From: a virus
Length of the DNA: 33,674 bases
Direction: 5' to 3' (one strand)
Virus record (IMG/VR): IMGVR_UViG_3300034257_000002
Span: 1-33,674 of that record
The notes beneath the pieces are model-generated. The model had not been told where the DNA came from. It saw only the letters and a program-made list of their open reading frames with translations, and did not search any database. The translations under genes were made by a program, and so were the position numbers. Shown here in pieces: positions 2,306-32,527 of the stretch; the stretch's first letter is position 1, and each line of letters opens with the position of its first letter.

Positions 2306-4051
2306 ATGGGTCTATCGAATACAGCAACGCCGATCTATTACGGTCAGTTTCGTGCGGCTGTAATACGAGGAGAGATTCCAGTCTGTAAAGAGATAGTCAT
2401 GGAGATGAATCGGATTGATAGTTTAATTGCTAACCCAGCGTTTTACTATGATGATCAAGCGGTTAATGGCTTTGTCGAATTCTGCGATAATGAACTAACT
2501 CTTACAGATGGTGGAGACCTGCATCTTCTCGACAGCTTTAAACTTTGGGCAGAACAAGTATTTGGATGGTACTACTTTGTTGAGCGAAGTGTATACCAGC
2601 CAACACCCAACAATCATGGTGGCAGGTATGTTAAGAAGACGATTATGAAACGTCTTGTTAATAAACAGTTCATAATTACCGCGCGTGGGGCTGCGAAGTC
2701 AATGTACGAGTCTTGTGTTCAGGGGTTCTATCTAAATGTTGACACGGACACAACTAAACAGATTACAACCGCCCCAACAATGAAACAAGCAGATGAAGTT
2801 ATGTCCCCGCTTCGAACGGCTATTGTTAGATCTCGAGGACCACTGTTTAGGTTTCTAACAGAAGGGTCCCTTCAGAACACCACAGGGTCTAGAGCAGATA
2901 GAGTTAAACTTGCCTCTACAAAGAATGGTATTGAGAACTTTTTAACGGGTTCTCTTCTCGAGGTTCGTCCTATGTCTATTGACAAACTGCAAGGACTTCG
3001 TGTTAAGATAGCCACTGTTGATGAATGGCTTTCTGGGGACATTCGCGAGGATGTTATAGGCGCGATCGAACAAGGTGCGTCTAAGTTGGATGACTATCTA
3101 ATCATTGCGACAAGTTCAGAAGGTACTGTTCGTAATAGTAGCGGCGATACAATCAAAATGGAATTACTTAGTATTCTTCGTGGTGACTACATTAATCCCC
3201 ATGTCTCCATTTGGTATTACAGACTTGATGACGTTCAGGAGGTTAATGACCCTTCCCTTTGGTTGAAAGCTAATCCCAACTTGGGAAAGACTGTTACGTA
3301 CGAAACCTATCAGTTGGACGTCGAAAGAGCAGAACAGGCCCCCGCATCAAGGAATGATATTTTAGCTAAACGGTTTGGCATTCCTATGGAGGGCTATACT
3401 TACTTTTTTACTTATGAGGAAACCATTCCTGGAAAACAATGTGACTTCTGGCAAATGACGTGCGCTCTTGGAATCGATCTTTCTCAAGGTGATGACTTCT
3501 GCGCCTTTACGTTTACCTTTCCTTTGCCCAATGGTACGTTTGGCGTCAAGACTCGATGCTATATTTCAGCCATAACTCTGATGAAACTTCCTGGGGCAAT
3601 GCGTTTTAAGTACGAGCAGTTTATCAATGAGGGAAGTCTCATGGTTTTGGATGGAACAGTTCTCGACATGATGGAGGTGTATGAGGATTTAGAGAAACAT
3701 ATTGCAAACTGTGGTTATGACGTTCGCTGTGTGGGTTTCGATCCTTATAATGCTAAAGAGTTCATGCAACGTTGGGAACAGGAGAATGGTCCTCAAGGAA
3801 TAGAGAAAGTAATCCAGGGTGCAAGAACGGAGTCTGTGCCACTAGGTGAACTGAAGAAGTTTGCTGAGCAAAGGATGCTAATCTTCGATCAGGAGCTTAT
3901 GCGTTTTGCTATGGGCAATGCTATAACTCTTGAGGATACTAATGGTAATCGGAAACTTCTTAAAAAGCGTCAAGAGCAGAAAATTGATAGTGTCTCTGCG
4001 CTCATGGATGGTTACATAGCCTATAAAGTAAACAAGGAAAGCTTTGAGTAA
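2306..4051 (+). CDS. terL: Terminase large subunit
   Basis: A 581-residue DNA-packaging motor ATPase and nuclease. The ATPase half has a degenerate Walker A, T125-A-R-G-A-A-K131-S132, and a Walker B ending in V-D239-E240-W. The nuclease half has the RNase H-like acidic residues D391 (ALGIDLSQGDD), D479 (VGFDPYNAKEF) and D561/D568 (QKIDSVSALMDG). Length and motif order fit a full, intact TerL. It pumps DNA through the portal into the prohead and cuts the concatemer. The start, ATG 2306, has AGGAGG 7 bases upstream and begins 11 bases after the previous stop. The next gene follows after 11 bases. No frameshift or missing catalytic residue is seen. Confidence 0.95.
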   Translation: MGLSNTATPIYYGQFRAAVIRGEIPVCKEIVMEMNRIDSLIANPAFYYDDQAVNGFVEFCDNELTLTDGGDLHLLDSFKLWAEQVFGWYYFVERSVYQPTPNNHGGRYVKKTIMKRLVNKQFIITARGAAKSMYESCVQGFYLNVDTDTTKQITTAPTMKQADEVMSPLRTAIVRSRGPLFRFLTEGSLQNTTGSRADRVKLASTKNGIENFLTGSLLEVRPMSIDKLQGLRVKIATVDEWLSGDIREDVIGAIEQGASKLDDYLIIATSSEGTVRNSSGDTIKMELLSILRGDYINPHVSIWYYRLDDVQEVNDPSLWLKANPNLGKTVTYETYQLDVERAEQAPASRNDILAKRFGIPMEGYTYFFTYEETIPGKQCDFWQMTCALGIDLSQGDDFCAFTFTFPLPNGTFGVKTRCYISAITLMKLPGAMRFKYEQFINEGSLMVLDGTVLDMMEVYEDLEKHIANCGYDVRCVGFDPYNAKEFMQRWEQENGPQGIEKVIQGARTESVPLGELKKFAEQRMLIFDQELMRFAMGNAITLEDTNGNRKLLKKRQEQKIDSVSALMDGYIAYKVNKESFE

Positions 4052-5805: not shown

Positions 5806-7740
5806 ATGGAAAAAAAATGGGATTTTAGTGGGTATGTCACTAAGAATGATCTTAAATGTTCCGACGGTCGTACGATTCGTAAGGATGCATTTAAGGATAG
5901 TGACGGGATTACTGTTCCTTTGGTGTGGCAGCACATGCATAATGATCCTGCCAACGTTCTTGGCCATGCGCTTCTCGAGAATCGGAGTGACGGTACCTAT
6001 GGTTATTGCCTGTTGAATGACACGCCAACTGGTAAGAACGCAAAGGTCCTCATAGAGCATGGCGATATTTCTTCAATGTCAATCTACGCAAATCAGTTAA
6101 AACAGGCGGGACAGGACGTTCTTCATGGTTTTATTCGTGAGGTAAGTCTTGTTCTGACTGGAGCAAATCCTGGTGCTCATATCGAGAACATCAGTTTTTC
6201 TCACTCTGATGGAACAGAAAAGATTGACGACGAAGAAGCAGTCATTTTGGCCGGTGAAAAGATTACCCTCGACGAGGAGGAAGACATTGAGCATGCGGAT
6301 GAGGAAAAAGGGAAGACTGTTGGCGATGTATTTGACAGTCTAAACGAGGAACAGAAAAACGTAGTGTATGCTATGTTGGCGCATGCTGTTAGCGACAAAG
6401 AAGACGGCCAAGGTGAGGCTGCCGCCCAGTCTGATGCGGAAACTGAGGACTCAATTAAACATTCTGATGAAGGAGAAAGCGTTATGAAAAACAACGTATT
6501 CGAAGGTAAACAAGAAACACTTCCGGAAAAGAAGCGGGTTACTTTGACTCGTGAGCAACTTAAGGAGCTCTTCGCGGATGCTGAGAAAACTGGTTCTCTT
6601 AGGACGAGTTTCTTGGCACATGCTGGCACCTATGGCGTGGACAACATTGACTATCTTTTCCCGGATGCCAGGACCGTTACCCCGACTCCCGATGTTATCG
6701 GGCGTAACATGGAATGGGTGACCACTGTTCTTAACGGGGCCAAACATTCTCCGTTCTCTCGGATTAGGTCAACGGCCGTGACTCTTACGGCTGATCAGGC
6801 CCGTGCTAAAGGTTACGTAAAGGGTAACCTGAAGAAAGAGGAAGTCATTCCGCTGCTTAAGCGCGTGACTACTCCGACGACCATCTACAAGAAACAGAAA
6901 CTAGATCGTGATGATATCATCGACATTGTCGATCTTGATATTGTTGCGTGGCTTAAAGCCGAGATGCGCACGATGCTGGATGAGGAAATTGCTCGTGCGG
7001 TTCTGATTGGTGATGGCCGCCAGATCGACGACGAGGACAAGATCAACGAGGACTGCATTCGTCCGATCGCGTATGACAATGATATGTATGCGCATCAGAT
7101 TCTGCTTCCCGCAAACGTTGTCGGCGACGCAATGATTGAGGGCATTCTTCGTGCTATGCCGTTCTATAAAGGATCTGGCAATGTGACCATGTTCACCACT
7201 ACGGCGATCCTGACGGATCTTCGTTTGGTTAAAGACGCGTATCAGCGTCGTATGTACCCGACTGTTGCTGATGTTGCAGCGGCGGCTGGCGTGGACAGAA
7301 TTGTTGCCGTTGAGGTTATGGAGTCTATTCCGGACATCATCGCCATCATTGTCAACATGAGAGACTATACCATCGGCGCAGATCGTGGCGGAGCTGTCGA
7401 GTTCTTCGACGATTTCGACATCGATTACAACCAGTACAAATACCTCTTGGAAGGCCGCATGTCTGGTTGCTTGACCCATCCCAAGTCTGCTCTTGTCATC
7501 AAACGTACTCCTGGCACCTTGGCTACTCCTGCGGTTCCGACTTTCGTACCGGCTACAGGCGTGGTTACCATCCCGGCGACGACTGGTGTTGTCTATAAAC
7601 AGGATGGTGTGACTGCTTCTGCTGGTGCTCAGGCCGCTATTGCTGCTGGTGCGAGCACGATCATCACTGCAACTCCTGCTACCGGCTACTCCTTCCCGCA
7701 CAACTTTGATGCTGATTGGACGTTCACTCGGAACGCATAA
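5806..7740 (+). CDS. Prohead protease-major capsid protein fusion
   Basis: 644 residues. Residues 1-130 are a HK97-type serine prohead protease. The likely catalytic His is in VWQHMHND (H43 or H45), and the likely Ser is in DISSMSIYA (S92, or S90), followed by EVSLVLTGANPGAHI. Residues 130-226 are an acidic Asp/Glu-rich linker that may act as a built-in scaffold (delta domain). Residues 227-577 are a HK97-fold capsid protein with landmarks AHAGTYGVDNIDYLFPDA, YKKQKLDRDDIIDI, EEIARAVLIGDGR and DDFDIDYNQYKYL. Residues 578-644 form an Ig-like domain (PTFVPATGVVTIPATTGVVY). Protease-capsid fusions are known in Gram-positive phages. An internal start at 6484 may also give the capsid part alone. 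Codon choice is biased, as in highly expressed genes. Confidence 0.93.
   Translation: MEKKWDFSGYVTKNDLKCSDGRTIRKDAFKDSDGITVPLVWQHMHNDPANVLGHALLENRSDGTYGYCLLNDTPTGKNAKVLIEHGDISSMSIYANQLKQAGQDVLHGFIREVSLVLTGANPGAHIENISFSHSDGTEKIDDEEAVILAGEKITLDEEEDIEHADEEKGKTVGDVFDSLNEEQKNVVYAMLAHAVSDKEDGQGEAAAQSDAETEDSIKHSDEGESVMKNNVFEGKQETLPEKKRVTLTREQLKELFADAEKTGSLRTSFLAHAGTYGVDNIDYLFPDARTVTPTPDVIGRNMEWVTTVLNGAKHSPFSRIRSTAVTLTADQARAKGYVKGNLKKEEVIPLLKRVTTPTTIYKKQKLDRDDIIDIVDLDIVAWLKAEMRTMLDEEIARAVLIGDGRQIDDEDKINEDCIRPIAYDNDMYAHQILLPANVVGDAMIEGILRAMPFYKGSGNVTMFTTTAILTDLRLVKDAYQRRMYPTVADVAAAAGVDRIVAVEVMESIPDIIAIIVNMRDYTIGADRGGAVEFFDDFDIDYNQYKYLLEGRMSGCLTHPKSALVIKRTPGTLATPAVPTFVPATGVVTIPATTGVVYKQDGVTASAGAQAAIAAGASTIITATPATGYSFPHNFDADWTFTRNA
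6471..6486 (+). promoter_or_regulatory. Internal ribosome-binding site and in-frame ATG in the protease-capsid gene
   Basis: AGGAG at 6471-6475 lies 8 bases before ATG 6484, which is in frame (residue 227 of the fusion). Translation from here would give a 418-residue free capsid protein beginning MKNNVFEGKQ, almost exactly at the boundary between the acidic linker and the capsid domain. Stand-alone capsid proteins of this family start with a similar MK-(H/N)-NVF sequence. The spacing matches that of the real gene starts in this window. I infer two products from one gene, capsid in excess and fusion as minority. Confidence 0.6.
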
Positions 7741-24745: not shown

Positions 24746-25486
24746 ATGATCGACTTTAAAGCAATTCTCGATGCTATAGTTCAGTATGGGACTCCTCTCG
24801 TGGTCGTGGTGCTTCTCATTATTTATATTCGAGATCGCGCAAAAACTCGTAACAAAATTACGGATAAACGAGAGGAAGAAGATGCCGAGCAGGGAAGTCA
24901 GTGGGCAGAACTAGCTTATGATACTGTTCGTACTGCTTTGAAAGACAATAAAGTTGAAGCTTCACTTCAACAAGAAGGGCAAGAGAAGGTAACTGCTCGC
25001 TTCGACATGGCAAAACACACATTAATGAGGACGGCATTAAAGAATAGCGGTGGGGCAAAGCGTATTCTATATTTTGCATACCACAATGGTGGAGACGACT
25101 ACGAACGCAATCCTTTTAAAAGAATGTCGTGTGAGACTGAAGTGGTTGGCCCTGACGTACCGCCTATTCAGAACAAGTATAACAATCTTTTCAGGACGTT
25201 CTTATATCCCGTCTACACCCAGTTTAATGCGGGTAAATCCGTGGCAATCACCAACATGGAACTATATAAAGAGAGTGATCCCGGCTTCTACACTACTATG
25301 ACCCAAGATGGGATCGGTGCATTCTATGCCGAGCCAATTAAAAATGAGAGGGGTAACACTTTTGCTTTCATTGCATACTGTTACTCCGATCCGCAAACGA
25401 ATGCTGCTATCCCAGAGATGGTGGACAATACTGCTCATCGACTTGAAGGCTTGTACATGACAAAAATTAAAGGAGGTACCCCATGA
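24746..25486 (+). CDS. Membrane-anchored GAF-like domain protein in the lysis cassette
   Basis: 246 residues. A single N-terminal membrane helix (about residues 9-29, YGTPLVVVVLLIIYI, followed by positive RDRAKTR) places the rest in the cytoplasm. Residues 33-95 are charged helices. Residues 105-240 look like a GAF-type sensor fold: KRILYFAYHNGGDDYERNPF, then SCETEVVGPDVPP, SVAITNMELY, TQDGIGAFYAEPIKNERGNT, FAFIAYCYSD. A YHNG motif with this layout is known in phage membrane proteins of unknown role. The start, ATG 24746, is 4 bases after the SH3 gene. The stop overlaps the holin start (ATGA, 25483-25486). Coupling to the holin suggests a lysis-timing or holin-control role; this is inference. 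Confidence 0.7.
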   Translation: MIDFKAILDAIVQYGTPLVVVVLLIIYIRDRAKTRNKITDKREEEDAEQGSQWAELAYDTVRTALKDNKVEASLQQEGQEKVTARFDMAKHTLMRTALKNSGGAKRILYFAYHNGGDDYERNPFKRMSCETEVVGPDVPPIQNKYNNLFRTFLYPVYTQFNAGKSVAITNMELYKESDPGFYTTMTQDGIGAFYAEPIKNERGNTFAFIAYCYSDPQTNAAIPEMVDNTAHRLEGLYMTKIKGGTP

Positions 25487-25962
25487 GACGACTCGTTGCA
25501 ATGCTTCTACTGCTCCTTATGCTGCTACCCATTATGGGCGTAGTAGCTGAGGTGGTGGTTCCTACTGCCGAACCGGTTGTGGTAATCGTCCCTGAGCCGC
25601 AACCATTTTTCAATCTGACCAACATTGTGGTAGCGATTATTGGCGTATGCGCCATGGTTGTGACGCGATATTTGGTTCCTATGTTCAAAGCAAACGCCTC
25701 GGAAAGCACACAAAACTTTGTATCAGTTGTTGTATCTATGCTCGTTTACGCCGCCGAGCAACTTTATAAGGGTGAAGGTCGCGGTGCAGAAAAAATGATG
25801 TGGGTAAAGGGTGAACTGCAAAAAAGGGGGCTAGACATTGATATCGCCGAAATTGAGGCGGCGGTGATGGCCCTTAACATGGAGCAGTGGGCTATATTCG
25901 CTGATACTGGAACGCTACTTACTTCAGAAGAAGAAGAATCTCCGGAGCCCATTAAACTATAG
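25483..25962 (+). CDS. Holin, LLH family (superfamily 6-like)
   Basis: 159 residues. Residues 1-22 are a signal-peptide-like hydrophobic start (MRRLVAMLLLLLMLLPIMGV). Residues about 47-70 form a membrane helix (NIVVAIIGVCAMVVTRYLVP). A cytoplasmic or surface helical domain follows with LVYAAEQLYKGEGRGAEKMM, WVKGELQKRGLDIDIAEIEA, the pattern of Phage_holin_6 (LLH) proteins. The tail is acidic (TSEEEESPEP). It permeabilises the membrane to release or activate the endolysin. AAGGAGG inside the upstream gene serves ATG 25483. Confidence 0.85.
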   Translation: MRRLVAMLLLLLMLLPIMGVVAEVVVPTAEPVVVIVPEPQPFFNLTNIVVAIIGVCAMVVTRYLVPMFKANASESTQNFVSVVVSMLVYAAEQLYKGEGRGAEKMMWVKGELQKRGLDIDIAEIEAAVMALNMEQWAIFADTGTLLTSEEEESPEPIKL

Positions 25963-25973
25963 GTTATATTTGC

Positions 25974-25998
25974 GATAATTACAAAGCCTATAACGGGA
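25974..25998 (+). promoter_or_regulatory. Conserved promoter-like element, copy 1
   Basis: Matches GANAWWTACA-N5-TATAAYGRRA, with TATAAC at 25989-25994. It lies 12 bases after the holin stop and drives the gene at 26027. It is the only copy before the main late terminator. Confidence 0.7.
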
Positions 25999-26026
25999 AG
26001 CATCAAATCATGAAAGGAGACGATGC

Positions 26027-26311
26027 ATGTTTAATGGGATAACCGATTGGATGAAACGCCGGAAACTGGAGAAACAGATCGCGGAACGACTGACGACATT
26101 GATAGAGAAATCAAATACTGAAGAGGAACTTTCTAGACTGATTATGCTAAAAGAAAAGGCTAACCAAACCAAGAAAAAGAGTTTGTTTACGCCCGATACT
26201 TTGCTGATCGTCGGGGGGAACCTTGTGGGCATTTGGATGATCTTGAAATTCGAGAAGTTCGAACCGGTCGTATCAAAAGCTTTTGGACAACTTCTGAGGG
26301 GTAGGCTATAA
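26027..26311 (+). CDS. Small single-helix membrane protein
   Basis: 94 residues. Residues 1-50 are a charged, probably coiled-coil region (MKRRKLEKQIAERLTTLIEK, EEELSRLIMLKEKA). Residues about 54-80 (LFTPDTLLIVGGNLVGIWMI, LKFEKF) contain one membrane helix, followed by EPVVSKAFGQLLRGRL. A (T/S)PD-x-L-L-x-x-x-x-N-(L/I)-x-GI-x-x-I-L-x-x-E-(K/R)-x-x-V-x-(T/S)-SKA pattern is widespread in small proteins of Gram-positive phages, with no function known to me. It has its own promoter element upstream and a strong terminator downstream, so it can be expressed separately from the lysis genes. The start, ATG 26027, follows AAAGGAGAC. Confidence 0.75.
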   Translation: MFNGITDWMKRRKLEKQIAERLTTLIEKSNTEEELSRLIMLKEKANQTKKKSLFTPDTLLIVGGNLVGIWMILKFEKFEPVVSKAFGQLLRGRL

Positions 26312-26349
26312 ACTGAACTGTTACTAAACGACTTAGATGCTTCTCTTAA

Positions 26350-26382
26350 AAGGGTATGTGAAAAACATACCCTTATTTTTTT
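26350..26382 (+). terminator. Strong intrinsic terminator ending the late operon
   Basis: A perfect 10-bp stem, AAGGGTATGT (26350-26359) with ACATACCCTT (26365-26374), has a 5-base loop and is followed by ATTTTTTTT. It is the first clear terminator in the window and separates the structural and lysis genes from the accessory arm. Confidence 0.93.
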
Positions 26383-26426
26383 CCCTAAAATTTCCCCGAC
26401 GGGATTTTTGGTAAAATGTTTTCTGC

Positions 26427-26451
26427 GAGAAATACATACCCTATAATGAGA
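26427..26451 (+). promoter_or_regulatory. Conserved promoter-like element, copy 2 (before RNA 1)
   Basis: The element has TATAAT at 26442-26447. The expected start of transcription is near 26453-26455. The first open frame downstream is 180 bases away and has its own element copy, so this promoter appears to serve the structured RNA. Confidence 0.72.
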
Positions 26452-26452
26452 A

Positions 26453-26591
26453 GGATTGGGAATTAACCCGATAGAGGCATAATGTTAGTCGCACACGCGC
26501 GGTATGTTAGCTATCCTAATAGTTCAATAGTTAGAACGCCATAGCAATATGGAAACGTAAGGTCAGAGCTTACAGATCCTTTAATTTTTTT
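26453..26591 (+). ncRNA. Candidate structured non-coding RNA 1
   Basis: About 130-140 nucleotides between a promoter element and a T-run (26585-26591), with no credible gene. Ends pair: AAGGAT (26451-26456) with ATCCTT (26576-26581), of which at least GGAT/ATCC lies in the transcript. Inside, GGG/CCC closes a 6-base loop (26458-26469). GATAG/CTATC (26470-26474, 26511-26515) encloses GGCATA/TATGTT and CGC-ACAC-GCG. Then come three successive hairpins: GTTC/GAAC (26522-26537), CCATA-GCAA-TATGG with a GNRA loop (26539-26552), and GTAAG/CTTAC with a 7-base loop (26557-26573). The order of the last three plus the end helix resembles D, anticodon and T arms, but it is not a standard tRNA. The pairings were done by eye. 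Role unknown. Confidence 0.55.
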
Positions 26592-26594
26592 CTC

Positions 26595-26619
26595 GATATT
26601 TACAGGTCCTATAATGAAA
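26595..26619 (+). promoter_or_regulatory. Conserved promoter-like element, copy 3
   Basis: TATAAT at 26610-26615, directly after the T-run of RNA 1. It drives the gene at 26635. Confidence 0.72.
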
Positions 26620-26634
26620 GGAAGGTGCACTTAT

Positions 26635-26880
26635 ATGGACGAGAAATTGATTGTTATCTTGGAGAATTTGAAAGAGTTGATTCTGGATCGATATAGGGCG
26701 GTTGCGGCTTTAGACAAGCTTCTTTTGGAAATCGAGGGGTACTCTAATGCAGAGGACCCAATTTACAAAAAGATGTTTGTCAAGGTACAACTAGCTTATT
26801 ATAGAGATTCCACAAAAAGCGACTTTGAGAGGAGAGAACTTGAGATCTTCAATAAACTTATAGAAGTAAGCCTATTCTAG
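26635..26880 (+). CDS. Small soluble helical protein, function unknown
   Basis: 81 residues: MDEKLIVILENLKELILDRY, RAVAALDKLLLEIEGYSNAE, DPIYKKMFVKVQLAYYRDST, then KSDFERRELEIFNKLIEVSLF. It is acidic and all-helical with no membrane segment. I chose ATG 26635 because GAAAGGAAGG precedes it; the longer frame begins at ATG 26614, which lies inside the -10 box of its own promoter and cannot be in the mRNA. It forms a one-gene unit with a promoter element before it and a GAAA-loop terminator 8 bases after it. I do not recognise the family. Confidence 0.65.
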   Translation: MDEKLIVILENLKELILDRYRAVAALDKLLLEIEGYSNAEDPIYKKMFVKVQLAYYRDSTKSDFERRELEIFNKLIEVSLF

Positions 26881-26888
26881 TGAGATTT

Positions 26889-26915
26889 GGCTACGGAAAC
26901 GTGGCCTCTCTTTTT
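26889..26915 (+). terminator. GAAA-tetraloop terminator, copy A
   Basis: GGCTACG (26889-26895), loop GAAA, CGTGGCC (26900-26906) with one G-T pair, then TCTCTTTTT. Promoter copy 4 begins three bases after the T-run. Confidence 0.88.
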
Positions 26916-26917
26916 AC

Positions 26918-26942
26918 GATATTTACAAGTCCTATAATGGAA
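26918..26942 (+). promoter_or_regulatory. Conserved promoter-like element, copy 4
   Basis: TATAAT at 26933-26938. It directly follows terminator copy A and drives the gene at 26966. Confidence 0.75.
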
Positions 26943-26965
26943 TTAAATATTAGGAGGGTATTGGA

Positions 26966-27268
26966 ATGAGCGAGATCAAAAAGCAAATGAAGGAACTTAA
27001 CGAACAGAAACACGTACTAATGGGGAAGCTTCTCAACCTTTTGCTCGTCTTTGGATTTTCGATGGTCGGCTATGCATACGTATTCTCGATTAGTGGAATC
27101 TTTTTCAAGATACTAGTCGGGGTAATGTATGTTGGACGGCTTTTCGATGTCATACAGGAAGCTGGAAGGTCGATAAACGTTATCAAATTAGGGAATGCTG
27201 TTCTTAAGTTAGGGAAATTTGCTGACGAAATCGAAGCCAAATCAACCACTTCAGAGAAACAAGACTAA
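26966..27268 (+). CDS. Small two-helix membrane protein
   Basis: 100 residues. A charged N-terminus (MSEIKKQMKELNEQKHVLMG) is followed by two hydrophobic segments at about residues 21-43 (LLNLLLVFGFSMVGYAYVFS) and 44-60 (GIFFKILVGVMYVGRLF). The C-terminal helix is charged (GKFADEIEAKSTTSEKQD). The start, ATG 26966, follows TAGGAGG. It is a single-gene unit with its own promoter element and a terminator beginning 7 bases after the stop. No family recognised; a membrane-acting accessory protein is likely. Confidence 0.68.
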   Translation: MSEIKKQMKELNEQKHVLMGKLLNLLLVFGFSMVGYAYVFSISGIFFKILVGVMYVGRLFDVIQEAGRSINVIKLGNAVLKLGKFADEIEAKSTTSEKQD

Positions 27269-27274
27269 AGGTCT

Positions 27275-27304
27275 GGCTACGGAAACGTAGCCTTTCCTTT
27301 TCTT
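27275..27304 (+). terminator. GAAA-tetraloop terminator, copy B
   Basis: GGCTACG (27275-27281), loop GAAA, CGTAGCC (27286-27292), a perfect 7-bp stem followed by TTTCCTTTTCTT. The hairpin is identical to copy C and differs from copy A at one base. Confidence 0.88.
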
Positions 27305-27306
27305 AC

Positions 27307-27331
27307 GAGAATTACAAGCCCTATAATGGAA
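27307..27331 (+). promoter_or_regulatory. Conserved promoter-like element, copy 5
   Basis: TATAAT at 27322-27327, two bases after the T-run of terminator copy B. It drives the gene at 27360. Confidence 0.75.
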
Positions 27332-27359
27332 CGAATACTATATTTAGGAGGAGACTGAA

Positions 27360-27566
27360 GTGTTTATGAGTTTGTTACTGCTTGCCCTTGCGGTTGCGAT
27401 TGGGATGTTGCTGGCTTACGGTGTGTTGTTTGCGATTGGGCTTAATAAGAGATTTATTAAGTTCATGGTCAAACGGATGCTAAAAGCCACAGCCGAACTT
27501 TCCGATGTGGGGTACGGACTGGAACTCGATTTCACTAAGCCCGAACTTGAAAAGGTAAGGACCTAA
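27360..27566 (+). CDS. Small membrane protein
   Basis: 68 residues from GTG 27360, which is 8 bases after GGAGG; the in-frame ATG 27366 would be 14 bases away. Residues 3-27 are strongly hydrophobic (MSLLLLALAVAIGMLLAYGV, LFAIG), giving one long or two short membrane helices. They are followed by a basic stretch (NKRFIKFMVKRMLK) and an acidic C-terminus (DFTKPELEKVRT). The unit has its own promoter element and terminator. It looks like other short phage membrane proteins with unknown targets. No homologue is recognised. Confidence 0.65.
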   Translation: MFMSLLLLALAVAIGMLLAYGVLFAIGLNKRFIKFMVKRMLKATAELSDVGYGLELDFTKPELEKVRT

Positions 27567-27572
27567 AGATTT

Positions 27573-27600
27573 GGCTACGGAAACGTAGCCTCTTCTTTTT
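27573..27600 (+). terminator. GAAA-tetraloop terminator, copy C
   Basis: GGCTACG (27573-27579), loop GAAA, CGTAGCC (27584-27590), then TCTTCTTTTT. Two bases separate the T-run from promoter copy 6. Confidence 0.88.
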
Positions 27601-27602
27601 GT

Positions 27603-27627
27603 GATATTTACAAACCCTATAATGGAG
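27603..27627 (+). promoter_or_regulatory. Conserved promoter-like element, copy 6 (before RNA 2)
   Basis: TATAAT at 27618-27623. Transcription should start near 27629-27631. There is no gene before the next T-run, so it appears to serve the structured RNA. Confidence 0.75.
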
Positions 27628-27628
27628 A

Positions 27629-27716
27629 GAGTCCTTGTGGTTAGCAAAGTAGTGCCCCATCCGGCATGTAGAATGATGGAAAGCGAAACGTATGCACACA
27701 AGGGCTCTTTCTTTTT
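27629..27716 (+). ncRNA. Candidate structured non-coding RNA 2
   Basis: About 85 nucleotides between a promoter element and CTTTTT (27711-27716). The ends pair over a long helix: 27626-27639 (AGAGAGTCCTTGTG) with 27697-27710 (CACAAGGGCTCTTT), 14 pairs with two G-T; at least 11 lie inside the transcript. This helix plus the T-run is also a good terminator. The 57-base interior contains CCATC/GATGG (27657-27661, 27675-27679) with a 13-base loop and a weak TGC/GCA helix below it. It has no ribosome-binding site and only a 15-codon frame, so it is not a likely gene. The layout (own promoter, closed ends, no gene) suggests a small stable RNA. No known family is recognised. Confidence 0.6.
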
Positions 27717-27718
27717 GT

Positions 27719-27743
27719 GAGAAATACAGAGCTTATAACGGAA
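27719..27743 (+). promoter_or_regulatory. Conserved promoter-like element, copy 7
   Basis: TATAAC at 27734-27739, two bases after the T-run of RNA 2. It drives the gene at 27774. Confidence 0.7.
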
Positions 27744-27773
27744 GGTCTATAAATCGAAAGGAGAACTACTGGT

Positions 27774-27920
27774 ATGAGCTTTTTGGCATTTGTTGGTATG
27801 CTAGCACTCGTCTTGTTTATATTCAAGAATGGGATGCGGGCTATCAGACTGGTGTTCAAAGTTTCACGACATTTGTTTGACCGAGCAGAGGAAAAGATCG
27901 AACACTGGATTAAGGGCTAA
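27774..27920 (+). CDS. 48-residue membrane mini-protein
   Basis: Begins MSFLAFVGMLALVLFIFKNG, one membrane helix (residues 2-17), then a basic amphipathic helix (MRAIRLVFKVSRHLFDRAEE, KIEHWIKG). GAAAGGAGA upstream supports ATG 27774. Promoter copy 7 lies just upstream, and a terminator hairpin starts 4 bases after the stop. The shape, hydrophobic anchor plus cationic amphipathic tail, is like small membrane-active or regulatory phage peptides, but no family is recognised. Confidence 0.6.
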   Translation: MSFLAFVGMLALVLFIFKNGMRAIRLVFKVSRHLFDRAEEKIEHWIKG

Positions 27921-27924
27921 TAGC

Positions 27925-27950
27925 TAAGGGCTAACAAGCCCTTAATTCTT
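27925..27950 (+). terminator. Probable terminator hairpin
   Basis: TAAGGGCT (27925-27932), loop AACA, AGCCCTTA (27937-27944), 8 perfect pairs followed by ATTCTTT. The T-run is short, so termination may be partial and allow read-through to the next two genes, which have no promoter element of their own. Confidence 0.65.
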
Positions 27951-27971
27951 TGCATAAGAAAGGAGGATAAA

Positions 27972-28064
27972 ATGAAGGTACTTTTTCATCTATTCATGAC
28001 AGTGATCACTGGGGGACTCTGGCTCATCTACTTGCTTGTGCGATATTTAGTGAGGAATAGCTAA
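27972..28064 (+). CDS. 30-residue membrane mini-protein
   Basis: Reads MKVLFHLFMTVITGGLWLIY then LLVRYLVRNS: a single membrane helix with a central TGGLWL motif and positive ends. Despite its size it has a very good ribosome-binding site (AAAGGAGG) 6 bases before ATG 27972, and the next gene starts one base after its stop without a ribosome-binding site of its own. The T-x-x-TGG-x-W-L pattern recurs in short phage and bacterial membrane proteins, including some superinfection-immunity-like ones. That link is from memory and is tentative. Confidence 0.65.
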   Translation: MKVLFHLFMTVITGGLWLIYLLVRYLVRNS

Positions 28065-28065
28065 A

Positions 28066-28278
28066 ATGGGAGCACACAAGCATAACCCGACGGCTATATT
28101 AGCCAAAGAAGGAAAACTTCCGCCAAAGAAGCACCGGCCGACAAACGCTGAGATCAAGCGTTGGATTCGCGAAAAGATGAACGAAGAAATTGAAAATCGT
28201 ATAATGAACGCTTTTCTTTGTGGCGATCCGGAGCTTGCAGAAGAAGCACGAAAAGCACGAGAAATACAGGGGCTATAA
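28066..28278 (+). CDS. Small basic protein, function unknown
   Basis: 70 residues: MGAHKHNPTAILAKEGKLPP, KKHRPTNAEIKRWIREKMNE, EIENRIMNAFLCGDPELAEE, ARKAREIQGL. The N-terminus is basic and probably flexible; residues 26-65 are helical and charged. The two His and the KKHRP segment could contact nucleic acid, but there is no recognised domain. It has no ribosome-binding site and starts one base after the 30-residue gene, so it is probably translated by re-initiation. A promoter element (28259-28283) overlaps its last codons. Confidence 0.6.
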   Translation: MGAHKHNPTAILAKEGKLPPKKHRPTNAEIKRWIREKMNEEIENRIMNAFLCGDPELAEEARKAREIQGL

Positions 28279-28283
28279 TGAAG
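28259..28283 (+). promoter_or_regulatory. Conserved promoter-like element, copy 8
   Basis: TATAAT at 28274-28279 overlaps the stop codon of the upstream gene, so 20 bases of the element are also coding sequence. It drives the gene at 28322. Confidence 0.72.
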
Positions 28284-28321
28284 AGCTATTATGGCTCTAT
28301 AAAAAAGGAGGAGGTCACCAA

Positions 28322-28564
28322 ATGAAGAAGTTTCTGAGGAAGGCAAAGGTGATTGGGGAACTATTCGGAAAAGGAGTCGCGATGCAGTTCGAGTCTGACA
28401 GCGCTATGGCACTCGCTGGGGTAGTCGGGTTATATCAAGGGCTAAAGTACAGAGGTAGCTTGGCCCGCGGTGTTAAGGCTAGCGTAGCGGTGGTCGCAGT
28501 GCTTGGAACAGTCGACGGCATCAGAATGGTAATTAAGAATAGGGAGTTCATCAAAAGCGCCTAA
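28322..28564 (+). CDS. Small Ala/Gly/Val-rich membrane-associated protein
   Basis: 80 residues: MKKFLRKAKVIGELFGKGVA, MQFESDSAMALAGVVGLYQG, LKYRGSLARGVKASVAVVAV, LGTVDGIRMVIKNREFIKSA. It has a basic N-terminus and two moderately hydrophobic stretches (about 28-40 and 50-64) that could be membrane helices. The start, ATG 28322, follows AAAAGGAGGAGG; an in-frame ATG at 28220 lies inside the previous gene. It has its own promoter element and a terminator 8 bases after its stop. Family not recognised. Confidence 0.65.
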   Translation: MKKFLRKAKVIGELFGKGVAMQFESDSAMALAGVVGLYQGLKYRGSLARGVKASVAVVAVLGTVDGIRMVIKNREFIKSA

Positions 28565-28572
28565 ATCAAATT

Positions 28573-28598
28573 GAGAGCAACGTGCTCTCTTTCTTTTC
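28573..28598 (+). terminator. Intrinsic terminator
   Basis: GAGAGCA (28573-28579), loop ACG, TGCTCTC (28583-28589), a perfect 7-bp stem followed by TTTCTTTTC. No promoter element follows before the next gene at 28623, so that gene may depend on read-through or an unseen promoter. Confidence 0.85.
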
Positions 28599-28622
28599 GT
28601 AAATGCTTGAAAGGAGCATACT

Positions 28623-29453
28623 ATGGATTTCTCTGGGATTACTAGAATCGGAAAACACCTAGTGGGTGTTACCACAAAACACGCCCCAACCATATTTACC
28701 GTATTGACCGGAGCAGGCGTCATTGTGACGGTAATACTGGCTATTGACGCGACGCCGAAGGCTATCCATATTCTTGAGGAGGAACGTCATAGAGTATGGC
28801 TCGAAATTGAGAAAAATAGAGCACCGGACGATCATCATAAGTACTCTGAAAAAGAGTTTGTCATCTCAAGAATGGACGTTGTCAAACTTGTTTGGCGATG
28901 CTATATTCCAGCCGCAATTGCTGGGGTCGCCACAATCGGTCTTGGTATAGGCGCTAACTCAATTAATCTGCGTCGTAACGCGGCTCTTGCCAGCGTCTAT
29001 GGCATCACTAAGGCCACTCTTAAGGAGTATGAGGATAAGGTGGTTGAGACCATTGGCGCAAACAAAGCTCGAAAGATTAAAGACGAGATTGCACAGGATC
29101 ATCTGACTCGTAACCCTATAGAGAGTAATCAGGTTTTCCTTACTGGACGTGGCGAGATGCTATGTTATGACAAGTACTCCGGACGATATTTCAAGGGAGA
29201 TATTGATAAAATACGCAAAACAGAGAACAAATTGAACAGGCAAATGTTGGCGGATATTTACGTTTCTCTCAATGATGTATATGGAGAAATTGGACTTCCC
29301 TATATTCCGCTTGGGGATGATGTCGGGTGGAATAGAGACTACACGCTAACATTTGTTGACCCCTTTCCTACTATGCTTTCTACGGACGAACAACCATGTC
29401 TAGTAATAGATTTTATGGTAGGACCTAAACCAGGGTACAAAGATCTATATTAA
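28623..29453 (+). CDS. DUF6353-like membrane protein, copy 1
   Basis: 276 residues. Two membrane helices lie at about residues 22-42 (TIFTVLTGAGVIVTVILAID) and 91-112 (WRCYIPAAIAGVATIGLGIG), with a charged helix between them (EEERHRVWLEIEKNR). The remainder is a soluble domain: LRRNAALASVYGITKATLKE, YEDKVVETIGANKARKIKDE, VFLTGRGEMLCYDKYSGRYF, MLADIYVSLNDVYGEIGLPY. This order matches a phage family I recall as DUF6353, with no known function. A paralogue is at 31577-32527. The start, ATG 28623, follows AAAGGAGC. A role in the host membrane during infection is likely but unspecified. Confidence 0.78.
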   Translation: MDFSGITRIGKHLVGVTTKHAPTIFTVLTGAGVIVTVILAIDATPKAIHILEEERHRVWLEIEKNRAPDDHHKYSEKEFVISRMDVVKLVWRCYIPAAIAGVATIGLGIGANSINLRRNAALASVYGITKATLKEYEDKVVETIGANKARKIKDEIAQDHLTRNPIESNQVFLTGRGEMLCYDKYSGRYFKGDIDKIRKTENKLNRQMLADIYVSLNDVYGEIGLPYIPLGDDVGWNRDYTLTFVDPFPTMLSTDEQPCLVIDFMVGPKPGYKDLY

Positions 29454-29465
29454 TAGGAGGAAAGA

Positions 29466-29636
29466 ATGGAAATCGACCAAATGGTTCAGTTTACTGTTTA
29501 TCACCGCGCTGAGGGAACGTACGATTGCGTTGTTGAAGGATCTGGATATCTAAGCCCAAGGGCAGCAGTTAATGCAACAATGGATATTTTGCAGCAACTT
29601 GCGAAAATTACACTTCCTATAATGGAACCTAAATAA
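29466..29636 (+). CDS. 56-residue soluble protein, function unknown
   Basis: Begins MEIDQMVQFTVYHRAEGTYD, then CVVEGSGYLSPRAAVNATMD, ILQQLAKITLPIMEPK. It looks like a small beta-hairpin plus helix fold without a membrane segment. The start, ATG 29466, follows AGGAGGAAAG and is 12 bases after the previous stop. Promoter copy 9 lies inside its last 12 codons (LAKITLPIMEPK), so the end of the protein may be dictated in part by the element. It is reasonably supported by its ribosome-binding site, but short. Confidence 0.6.
   Translation: MEIDQMVQFTVYHRAEGTYDCVVEGSGYLSPRAAVNATMDILQQLAKITLPIMEPK
29603..29627 (+). promoter_or_regulatory. Conserved promoter-like element, copy 9 (inside a gene)
   Basis: TATAAT at 29618-29623, wholly within the 3' end of the 56-residue gene. 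It drives the gene at 29656. Confidence 0.7.
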
Positions 29637-29655
29637 AGAAAAGGAGACTACAAAC

Positions 29656-29871
29656 ATGGCGAAGGACAGATCGATCCCCGAGGACACTTTTGTTCAGGAA
29701 AAGAGGGGCGCAAAGGTCAAACGCACTTACGAGAGGCATAAGTTTGCAACCGGCGTGGTTGTGGGCGTTGCTCTCGGACTTGTGGCGGACGTTGCTGCCG
29801 GGATTTTCAAGGAGAAGAGGGAAGCCGTGGCGGTTGAAAGCGATCCCTGGGTGGATGTCAACAAAGACTGA
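29656..29871 (+). CDS. Small single-helix membrane protein
   Basis: 71 residues: MAKDRSIPEDTFVQEKRGAK, VKRTYERHKFATGVVVGVAL, GLVADVAAGIFKEKREAVAV, ESDPWVDVNKD. There is one membrane helix at about residues 31-51, with a basic N-terminal side and an acidic C-terminal end. The start, ATG 29656, follows AAAGGAGAC. A promoter element lies upstream inside the previous gene and a GAAA-loop hairpin follows, so it is a one-gene unit. No family is recognised. Confidence 0.65.
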   Translation: MAKDRSIPEDTFVQEKRGAKVKRTYERHKFATGVVVGVALGLVADVAAGIFKEKREAVAVESDPWVDVNKD

Positions 29872-29884
29872 AAAGGGGTTCTGC

Positions 29885-29924
29885 AAGCGGGGTGTTATGG
29901 AAACATAGCACCTTAGCTTTCTCT
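29885..29924 (+). terminator. GAAA-tetraloop hairpin, probable terminator
   Basis: GGTGTTATG (29891-29899), loop GAAA, CATAGCACC (29904-29912), nine pairs with one G-T, extended by AAGC/GCTT outside small bulges. TTTCTCTT follows. It shares the GGAAAC core with terminator copies A-C but not the stem sequence. Confidence 0.72.
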
Positions 29925-29937
29925 TGAAAGGAGAAAA

Positions 29938-30156
29938 ATGAAAATCTGTATTATAAAGGACGATCCTAAGGACCCCTTTGAAGGACGTATTACCTGCATT
30001 GTTGGAACTGGCCAAAAGGTAACCATACGTTTAGCCGAAAGTAAGGGAGAAGAGTCTGCTATATTTATTGATCCATCAACTATTCCCGGTAATGAATGCC
30101 AAGGTGATGGCATGGTTATTCCTCATGGGTATAACCAAATAATACTCTATCCCTAA
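29938..30156 (+). CDS. Small soluble protein, function unknown
   Basis: 72 residues: MKICIIKDDPKDPFEGRITC, IVGTGQKVTIRLAESKGEES, AIFIDPSTIPGNECQGDGMV, IPHGYNQIILYP. It is beta-rich and without membrane segments; the three Cys (C4, C20, C54) are not in a recognised metal motif. The start, ATG 29938, follows GAAAGGAGA. No promoter element lies directly before it, so it may be transcribed by read-through past the hairpin at 29885-29924. The next promoter copy begins 4 bases after its stop. Confidence 0.65.
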   Translation: MKICIIKDDPKDPFEGRITCIVGTGQKVTIRLAESKGEESAIFIDPSTIPGNECQGDGMVIPHGYNQIILYP

Positions 30157-30160
30157 TCAT

Positions 30161-30185
30161 GAGAATTACAAACGGTATAATGGAA
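30161..30185 (+). promoter_or_regulatory. Conserved promoter-like element, copy 10
   Basis: TATAAT at 30176-30181. This is the last copy in the window and the only one with GG rather than CC/CT/GC just before the -10 box. It drives the gene at 30209. Confidence 0.7.
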
Positions 30186-30208
30186 CTATATTAAAAAGGA
30201 GGATTACC

Positions 30209-30466
30209 ATGGACGGGTTATTCTGGACTAAATTTGCTGTTGGTGCTATTGCCGCCGCTGGGACTACTGTTGTTGTGGACGCTGCCTATAAGTCGCTTGA
30301 GGATCATTTGCCGAAGAAGCCTATTGGAAAGGCTTTTGCGATAATTGGCGCAAGTACGTTGGTGGGCATCGCCGCAGTAGCAGCAGTGAAGTATACGGAC
30401 AACAGCATCAACACAATTATCGAACTGAAGGACATCGTCAAGGAAAATCGGAAAAAGAAGAAATAG
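30209..30466 (+). CDS. Small two-helix membrane protein
   Basis: 85 residues. Two hydrophobic segments are seen: residues about 8-26 (KFAVGAIAAAGTTVVVDAAY) and 41-60 (KAFAIIGASTLVGIAAVAAV), separated by a charged loop (KSLEDHLPKKPIG). The C-terminus is very basic (KDIVKENRKKKK). The start, ATG 30209, follows AAAGGAGGA. It has its own promoter element and a 12-bp terminator 6 bases after the stop. Family not recognised. Confidence 0.66.
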   Translation: MDGLFWTKFAVGAIAAAGTTVVVDAAYKSLEDHLPKKPIGKAFAIIGASTLVGIAAVAAVKYTDNSINTIIELKDIVKENRKKKK

Positions 30467-31576: not shown

Positions 31577-32527
31577 ATGTTTAGCTTTGGTAATATTTCT
31601 GCAATCGTTACCCGGGGAGCTCTGCTGGCCAGAAAAGTCAGCCCAACGGGGCTTCTAATCCTTGGTCTTGGCGGTATTGTTGTGGGAACCGTCATGGCTT
31701 GTAATGCAACCCTCAAGGTTGAGGAAATCATCGACACAGCAGACGAGAAGATGGACAACATCGAGAGCATCCACGCAGATGAAGCGTACAAAGACAGGTA
31801 CAGCGAGAGAGATTATCAAAAAGATAAGATGCTCGTCAAGGTACGGACAATCAAATCTCTGGTCAAGATCTATGGCCCGGCCGTCTTGGTAATGGTCGTA
31901 TCTGGGGCAGCTATCGTGGGCGGTCATCATATTCTCACTGTGCGTAATGCTGGGTTGGCCGCTGGTCTTAAGGTGGTAAGCGCCGCATTCGAGAAGTATC
32001 GTGGCCGTGTAGTGCTGGCAGAGGGCCAAGCGAAAGACGATGAGTACCGTTATGGCATCGTTCAGAAACAGATTACCGAGACTGTTACGGACGAAGATGG
32101 CAAGGAAAAGAAAGTCAAGAAAGCTGTCAACTTCTCAGAGGAAACGGAAGGGAGTATGTATGCTCGGTATTTCCAGCCGGGGAATCCTAGCTGGGGAAAC
32201 AATTTGGACGACAATCTATATTTCATCCAACTCGCACAGAATCATGCGAACGATTTAATAAAAAGCCGCGAAATCGTTTCTGGTCGGGGTAAAAATAGGA
32301 AGGTCAAGCCTGGACACGTATTCTTGAATGAAGTGTACGAGTCTCTTAACCTCCCGCACAGCGATATCGGAGCGCTTGTTGGCTGGGTTCGTGGTAGCGA
32401 AGTCGGAGACAAGGACATCGATTTCGGTATCAAGCCAATCATCAGCGACCTGAGTAATGGCCTGAAGTACGCGCCAAGGATCTTGCTCGACTTCAATGTT
32501 GACGGGGTAATCTGGAATCTTATTTGA
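31577..32527 (+). CDS. DUF6353-like membrane protein, copy 2
   Basis: 316 residues. Two membrane helices lie at about residues 26-43 (TGLLILGLGGIVVGTVMACN) and 97-117 (YGPAVLVMVVSGAAIVGGHH). Between them is a charged helical stretch with EEIIDTADEKMDNIESIHAD. The distal domain parallels copy 1: LTVRNAGLAAGLKVVSAAFE, KYRGRVVLAEGQAKDDEYRY, then FLNEVYESLNLPHSDIGALV, GWVRGSE, and LLDFNVDGVIWNL. It is longer than copy 1 because of an insert around residues 165-215 (TVTDEDGKEKKVKKAVNFSE). Function unknown. The start, ATG 31577, follows AAAGGAGAAG. Confidence 0.75.
   Translation: MFSFGNISAIVTRGALLARKVSPTGLLILGLGGIVVGTVMACNATLKVEEIIDTADEKMDNIESIHADEAYKDRYSERDYQKDKMLVKVRTIKSLVKIYGPAVLVMVVSGAAIVGGHHILTVRNAGLAAGLKVVSAAFEKYRGRVVLAEGQAKDDEYRYGIVQKQITETVTDEDGKEKKVKKAVNFSEETEGSMYARYFQPGNPSWGNNLDDNLYFIQLAQNHANDLIKSREIVSGRGKNRKVKPGHVFLNEVYESLNLPHSDIGALVGWVRGSEVGDKDIDFGIKPIISDLSNGLKYAPRILLDFNVDGVIWNLI

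Follow-up and report, generated by a model that had tools for sequence, protein, structure and literature searches.

The question raised by the stretch of DNA considered here is what recognizes an element that stands ten times, always in the same orientation, ahead of small genes and RNAs. The stretch (hereafter the window) is a 33,674-base IMG/VR virus record (IMGVR_UViG_3300034257_000002) and represents a 33.7 kb fragment of a soil phage. In the first-pass annotation, the element was taken either as a promoter class needing a phage- or host-encoded factor or as a set of promoters doubling as binding sites for one repressor. A promoter class needing a phage-encoded factor was the best-supported reading: the ten elements are probably promoters of a phage-encoded single-chain two-barrel RNA polymerase (family phrog_4291), the candidate being the enzyme carried by this phage lineage.

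The window was searched with the pattern GANAWWTACA-N5-TATAAYGRRA at up to three mismatches, and exactly the ten plus-strand sites reported in the first-pass annotation were recovered, against 0.28 matches expected in the shuffled window (maximum of 2 in any shuffle). Eight of the sites fit the pattern exactly (27603 and 28259 each have one mismatch, at the last base), and the gap between the boxes was invariant. In the position-matrix scan suggested earlier, the ten sites (scores 29–37) stood apart from the next best match (18, at 4007 within the terminase gene) and from the minus strand (at most 11). Neither pattern nor matrix placed the element in 1–25.9 kb, where its absence from the structural region had already been noted, or beyond 30.2 kb. 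Aligned, the ten sites read approximately T-(T/C)-(A/G)-(C/T)-GANAWWTACA-N3-CC-TATAAY-GRRA, and the full-length element (TYGCRNNWWTACANNNCCTATAATGAGA) is longer than first described. Information content spans from about 4 bases 5' of GANA to 4 bases 3' of the hexamer; the RRA 3' of the hexamer belongs to the element, as does an additional upstream box, which is TNRY in the window and TYGC in relatives.

The array begins directly 3' of a holin-like gene (25483–25962, Pfam Holin_LLH). Every site does lie ahead of a small gene or an RNA, as had been claimed: eight are followed by a small gene with a Shine-Dalgarno sequence and two (26427 and 27603) by an RNA without an obvious open reading frame (ORF). 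Terminator-like hairpins with a T-run were in excess (12 observed vs 3.6 expected) and several of them adjoin the next element, which gives the region the appearance of consecutive promoter-gene-terminator units, in which each small gene or RNA would have a promoter and terminator of its own.

The window phage has relatives in actinophage clusters BI, DJ, AM/AU, EL and CC, and lactococcal phage 1706 is also related to it. The window terminase shares 77–78% identity with its counterparts in Streptomyces phages ClubPenguin and RosaAsantewaa and in Gordonia phage Duffington, and up to 81% with those encoded on many IMG/VR contigs; the lineage is abundant in that database, with at least 600 terminase matches. 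Genomes of the relatives are 43–79 kb long, with structural genes at the left, small genes in the middle, and then primase/polymerase, helicase, VRR-Nuc, Cas4 and a protein of ~900 amino acids at the right end. By comparison with these gene orders, the window appears to lack the right part of its genome, and the polymerase gene would lie beyond the end of the window. No match was obtained when the right arm of the window was searched against phages at near-DNA level.

Relatives were scanned with the matrix built from the window, followed by per-genome refinement. In 20 related phages and contigs besides the window, 6–15 plus-strand sites and zero minus-strand sites were found, with 0–0.25 expected per strand; a few of the weaker sites are likely false. 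The most divergent relative, MT835495 (the 21st), had 2 sites only, which is chance level. Hosts of the element-bearing phages range from Lactococcus to Streptomyces, and the element drifts by lineage: Gordonia, Streptomyces and Rhodococcus phages carry TCGCA...TTACA...CCTATAATGAGACCCC, Curtobacterium phages CTATAATAGA or CTTTAATAGA, Lactococcus CHPC971 CTATAGTAGAAA and Lactococcus P118 CCTATAATGAAAG. Sites in the relatives lie mostly between the tail/lysis and the primase/replication genes, and the left structural arm up to the major tail gene is free of them. In 13 of 16 actinophages, a copy lies no more than 1 kb upstream of VRR-Nuc, which opens the VRR-Nuc/Cas4/RNA-polymerase operon (mostly at 55–264 bp, and at 687 bp in two of the 13). 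In MediumFry (~30191) and CHPC971 (~30686), elements lie directly 5' of apparent tRNA genes, an arrangement that would favour a transcriptional role. Zero sites were found in the controls Trumpet and ChuckDuck (matrix) and jm2 (pattern), all of them distantly related only. The search turned up no close relative lacking the polymerase; Microbacterium phage Count, considered as one, encodes it.

The element was also used without reference to gene content. A motif-only scan of IMG/VR with TCGCANNNWWTACANNNCCTATAATGAGA returned at least 120 stretches, and 50 contigs were then tested: 32 match phrog_4291 (one or two weakly), 33 match the lineage terminase and 40 match at least one of the two. The 10 contigs with neither are all shorter than 28 kb, and every tested contig longer than 46 kb encodes the full polymerase. 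The same database scanned with the window-type motif gave single-site contigs only, near chance.

For the co-conserved phage DNA-binding protein that the first-pass annotation had proposed to look for, a candidate can be named: all complete relatives tested encode at the right end a two-barrel RNA polymerase of ~900 residues with helix-turn-helix (HTH) domains. The match to phrog_4291 ('RNA-dependent RNA polymerase') extends over the entire protein (E=0). About 250 phage records hold a phrog_4291 protein, and many label it an HTH protein; the labels 'helix-turn-helix DNA-binding protein', 'hypothetical', 'excise' and 'tail fiber protein' were seen in many records (e.g., L102 33037–35757 and L104 28215–30917). 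Among 49 aligned sequences, the motif LSGADFDGD (the DxDGD catalytic motif) was invariant, Pfam RdRP matched weakly in 22, and HTH families including Sigma70_r4-like ones matched most, at both ends. The AlphaFold model of the polymerase (predicted local distance difference test score 81.9, predicted template modelling score 0.63) was searched with Foldseek; the best match was QDE-1 (E 1e-9, prob 1.00), followed by P74-26 gp62 and P23-45 gp64 (E 1e-6) and plant RDR2. Global template modelling scores of these matches are low (0.25–0.33), which may reflect a different domain arrangement or imperfect modelling. By its catalytic motif and predicted fold, the right-end protein is assigned to the two-barrel (YonO/QDE-1-like) RNA polymerases. 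In 27 related genomes, no protein with sigma region 2 (Sigma70_r2) was found, and a search without a positive control gave no match to T7-like RNA polymerase (PF00940). Presence of the polymerase in the virion is not claimed: the ReqiPepy6 record reads 'similar to 1706 gp75, structural protein', and the record of phage 1706 gives gp75 no structural label.

In the mechanism that we propose, the polymerase, whose two ends carry HTH domains, would recognize the TYGC and TACA boxes upstream and melt the TATAAT box, and transcription would start a few bases 3', at the conserved purines (GRRA/GAGA). Through the copy 5' of the VRR-Nuc/Cas4/polymerase operon in most related actinophages, the enzyme would probably boost its own expression. 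More tentatively, a self-sufficient two-barrel polymerase with built-in HTH domains may read this bipartite promoter alone, possibly starting almost directly after TATAAT, and drive both single-gene units and its own operon across phages of Actinobacteria and Firmicutes.

The closest competing explanation is that host RNA polymerase reads the element through its housekeeping sigma factor, helped by an activator, encoded by the phage or the host, that binds the TACA/TYGC boxes and takes the place of a -35 element. We regard this as unlikely, if by some way the most serious of the alternatives. It would account for the TATAAY hexamer in all ten window sites (A-11 in 10/10, T-7 in 8/10) and the -10-like hexamer of most relatives, for terminator-like hairpins of the ordinary intrinsic type, and for a motif drift that follows the whole phage and not the polymerase. 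The element has the TATAAT box in common with bacterial sigma-70 promoters and differs from them in its extra conserved boxes, in the strong base conservation 3' of the hexamer and in the absence of a -35 or extended -10. As the first-pass annotation had reported, no common -35 hexamer was seen at spacers of 16–18 bp, where the best TTGACA match averaged 2.5/6 vs 2.5/6 at random positions; the extended -10 (TGn) occurred in 0/10 window sites, and a sigma-70 consensus scan of the window selected no TATAAY box of the array. The A at the second hexamer position (A-11) is critical for sigma-70, and it is lost across the arrays of several relatives: most RosaAsantewaa and Yotsuba sites lack it, as do the six sites listed for record G034. 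In some sites the Shine-Dalgarno sequence overlaps the region where a sigma-70 start would be expected: it begins 1–6 nt 3' of the hexamer in record L101 (3021), in CHPC971 (27139 and others) and at window element 3, so that a start ~7 nt downstream would cut it off. The occurrence of the same element in phages of Lactococcus and Streptomyces also counts against this explanation.

Several results weigh against assigning the element to the phage polymerase. Most of the phages have a perfect bacterial -10 as their hexamer, and the tight Shine-Dalgarno spacing, present in only 10 of 158 scored sites, is suggestive only. The window record has no match to the ~900-residue polymerase; it is a fragment, and its gene is inferred from relatives. 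Profile comparison of the polymerase with YonO was weak (probability 4.6%, E 0.009, catalytic motif aligned). Motif distance correlated with core-gene distance for all core genes (Mantel test, r 0.36–0.64), and no polymerase-specific covariation with the motif was left once terminase distance was removed (partial r -0.03). Because motif divergence tracks all core genes, the co-occurrence extends to the whole lineage and does not point to the polymerase in particular, and it cannot separate this gene from the rest of a coherent lineage. The link between motif and polymerase rests on the nature of the enzyme.

The second proposal of the first-pass annotation, that the sites are operators of one repressor or another DNA-binding regulator, was not borne out and is considered very improbable. 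Many near-identical intergenic sites would fit it, and the stoperators described for actinophages are a known precedent (PMC10276819 and PMC5559632). The element, however, was searched for dyad symmetry and has none, its sites occupy one strand and one region, their position is fixed directly 5' of genes and RNAs, and they contain a TATAAT box; for the cluster EL relatives, no repressor or integrase is reported (PMC7302621). A post-transcriptional leader element (a conserved signal in the 5' untranslated region) would explain the position directly 5' of Shine-Dalgarno sequences and is the least probable reading, since the element also precedes RNAs without ORFs, directly follows terminator-like hairpins and is conserved as a TATAAT-containing, DNA-like element.

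Promoters of T7-like single-subunit polymerases are ~25 bp long, with fixed spacing, conserved initiation bases and placement on one strand. As a promoter of the phage polymerase, the element would work alike, with a different sequence and a candidate enzyme that belongs to the two-barrel family, which is unrelated to the Pol I-like one. Thermus phage P23-45 also encodes single-chain two-barrel polymerases; one of them, gp64, ranks with its homolog P74-26 gp62 near the top of the fold matches. Promoters are described for its virion RNA polymerase (vRNAP) gp96 and its non-virion RNA polymerase gp64; conserved short motifs precede its early transcripts, and its AT-rich motif occurs only in relatives encoding vRNAP (PMC10770324). 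The host, phage lineage and genome layout differ; P23-45 has its vRNAP in a fusion with the tape measure protein, whereas the window's relatives have a separate right-end polymerase gene, and transcription was measured in P23-45. YonO, which the Gram-positive phage SPbeta encodes, is likewise a DNA-dependent polymerase with a single chain and two barrels and has the D-x-DGD motif in common (PMC5467207). In contrast to the array described here, YonO transcribes the late genes from a single start as one operon, and the sequence of its promoter was left open (PMC5467207); similarity between the two enzymes in sequence is near the detection limit. The region upstream of SPbeta yonK was examined for a similar element and not used: TATAATGGG is present but lacks a TACA box, and the region could not be aligned with the published start. 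In SPBc2 (L413 9868–9874, minus strand), GCTTATAATGGG lies in a long non-coding stretch upstream of yonK.

Promoters of phage polymerases are already a known kind (P23-45; PMC10770324). In the open-licence literature searched, no promoter sequence was reported for the two-barrel polymerase group, and the way in which YonO-like single-chain polymerases locate their promoters was explicitly left open (PMC5467207). In the passages searched of open-licence papers on these actinophage clusters, arrays of small membrane genes (PMC5513430) and shared gene content are described and no such promoter motif is reported. A concrete consensus is now available in many sequenced phages, some of them in culture collections, together with a named candidate enzyme often labelled merely as an HTH protein. 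If correct, the assignment would provide a new polymerase-promoter pair for Gram-positive hosts and would account for the expression of the small membrane-protein gene arrays (PMC5513430).

Table 1 Elements, RNAs and hairpins of the array (window positions)
Feature	Position	Strand	Context
Element 1 (TTGCGATAATTACAAAGCCTATAACGGGA)	25969–25998	+	5' of 94-amino-acid ORF 26027–26311
Element 2	26422–26451	+	5' of non-coding stretch 26448–26594
Element 3	26590–26619	+	Shine-Dalgarno GAAAGGAAGG immediately adjoins TATAAT box; ATG 26635
Element 4	26913–26942	+	5' of ORF 26966–27268
Element 5	27302–27331	+	5' of ORF 27360–27566 (GTG start)
Element 6	27598–27627	+	5' of ~90-nt structured RNA
Element 7	27714–27743	+	5' of ORF 27774–27920
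Element 8	28254–28283	+	overlaps end of ORF 28066–28278; 5' of ORF 28323–28564
Element 9	29598–29627	+	within end of ORF 29466–29636; 5' of ORF 29656–29871
Element 10	30156–30185	+	5' of ORF 30209–30466
Small-ORF block served by array	26027–30466	+	includes DUF6353 protein 28623–29453
Predicted small RNA	27624–27712	+	16-bp closing stem ending in T-run; -34.3 kcal/mol, z -3.7
Possible structured RNA, no obvious ORF	26448–26594	+	z -2.2; no Rfam match
Terminator-like hairpin	26350–26374	+	ahead of element 2
Terminator-like hairpin (GGCTACGGAAACGTGGCC + T-run)	26889–26906	+	adjoins element 4
Terminator-like hairpin	27275–27292	+	adjoins element 5
Terminator-like hairpin	27573–27590	+	adjoins element 6

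Rfam and tRNA searches of the window gave no useful match. The stretch that follows element 2 contains a segment resembling a tRNA D-arm (AGTTCAATAGTTAGAAC), with no ARAGORN or Rfam match, and the stem of the small RNA that follows element 6 was ambiguous as a guide to the transcript start. The right arm holds two DUF6353 proteins (Pfam PF19880), the one listed in Table 1 and one at 31577–32527; a single contig was recovered with the DUF6353 protein as bait. In the structural region, 5806–7740 appears to encode head maturation protease fused to the major capsid protein, an arrangement shared with the related clusters.

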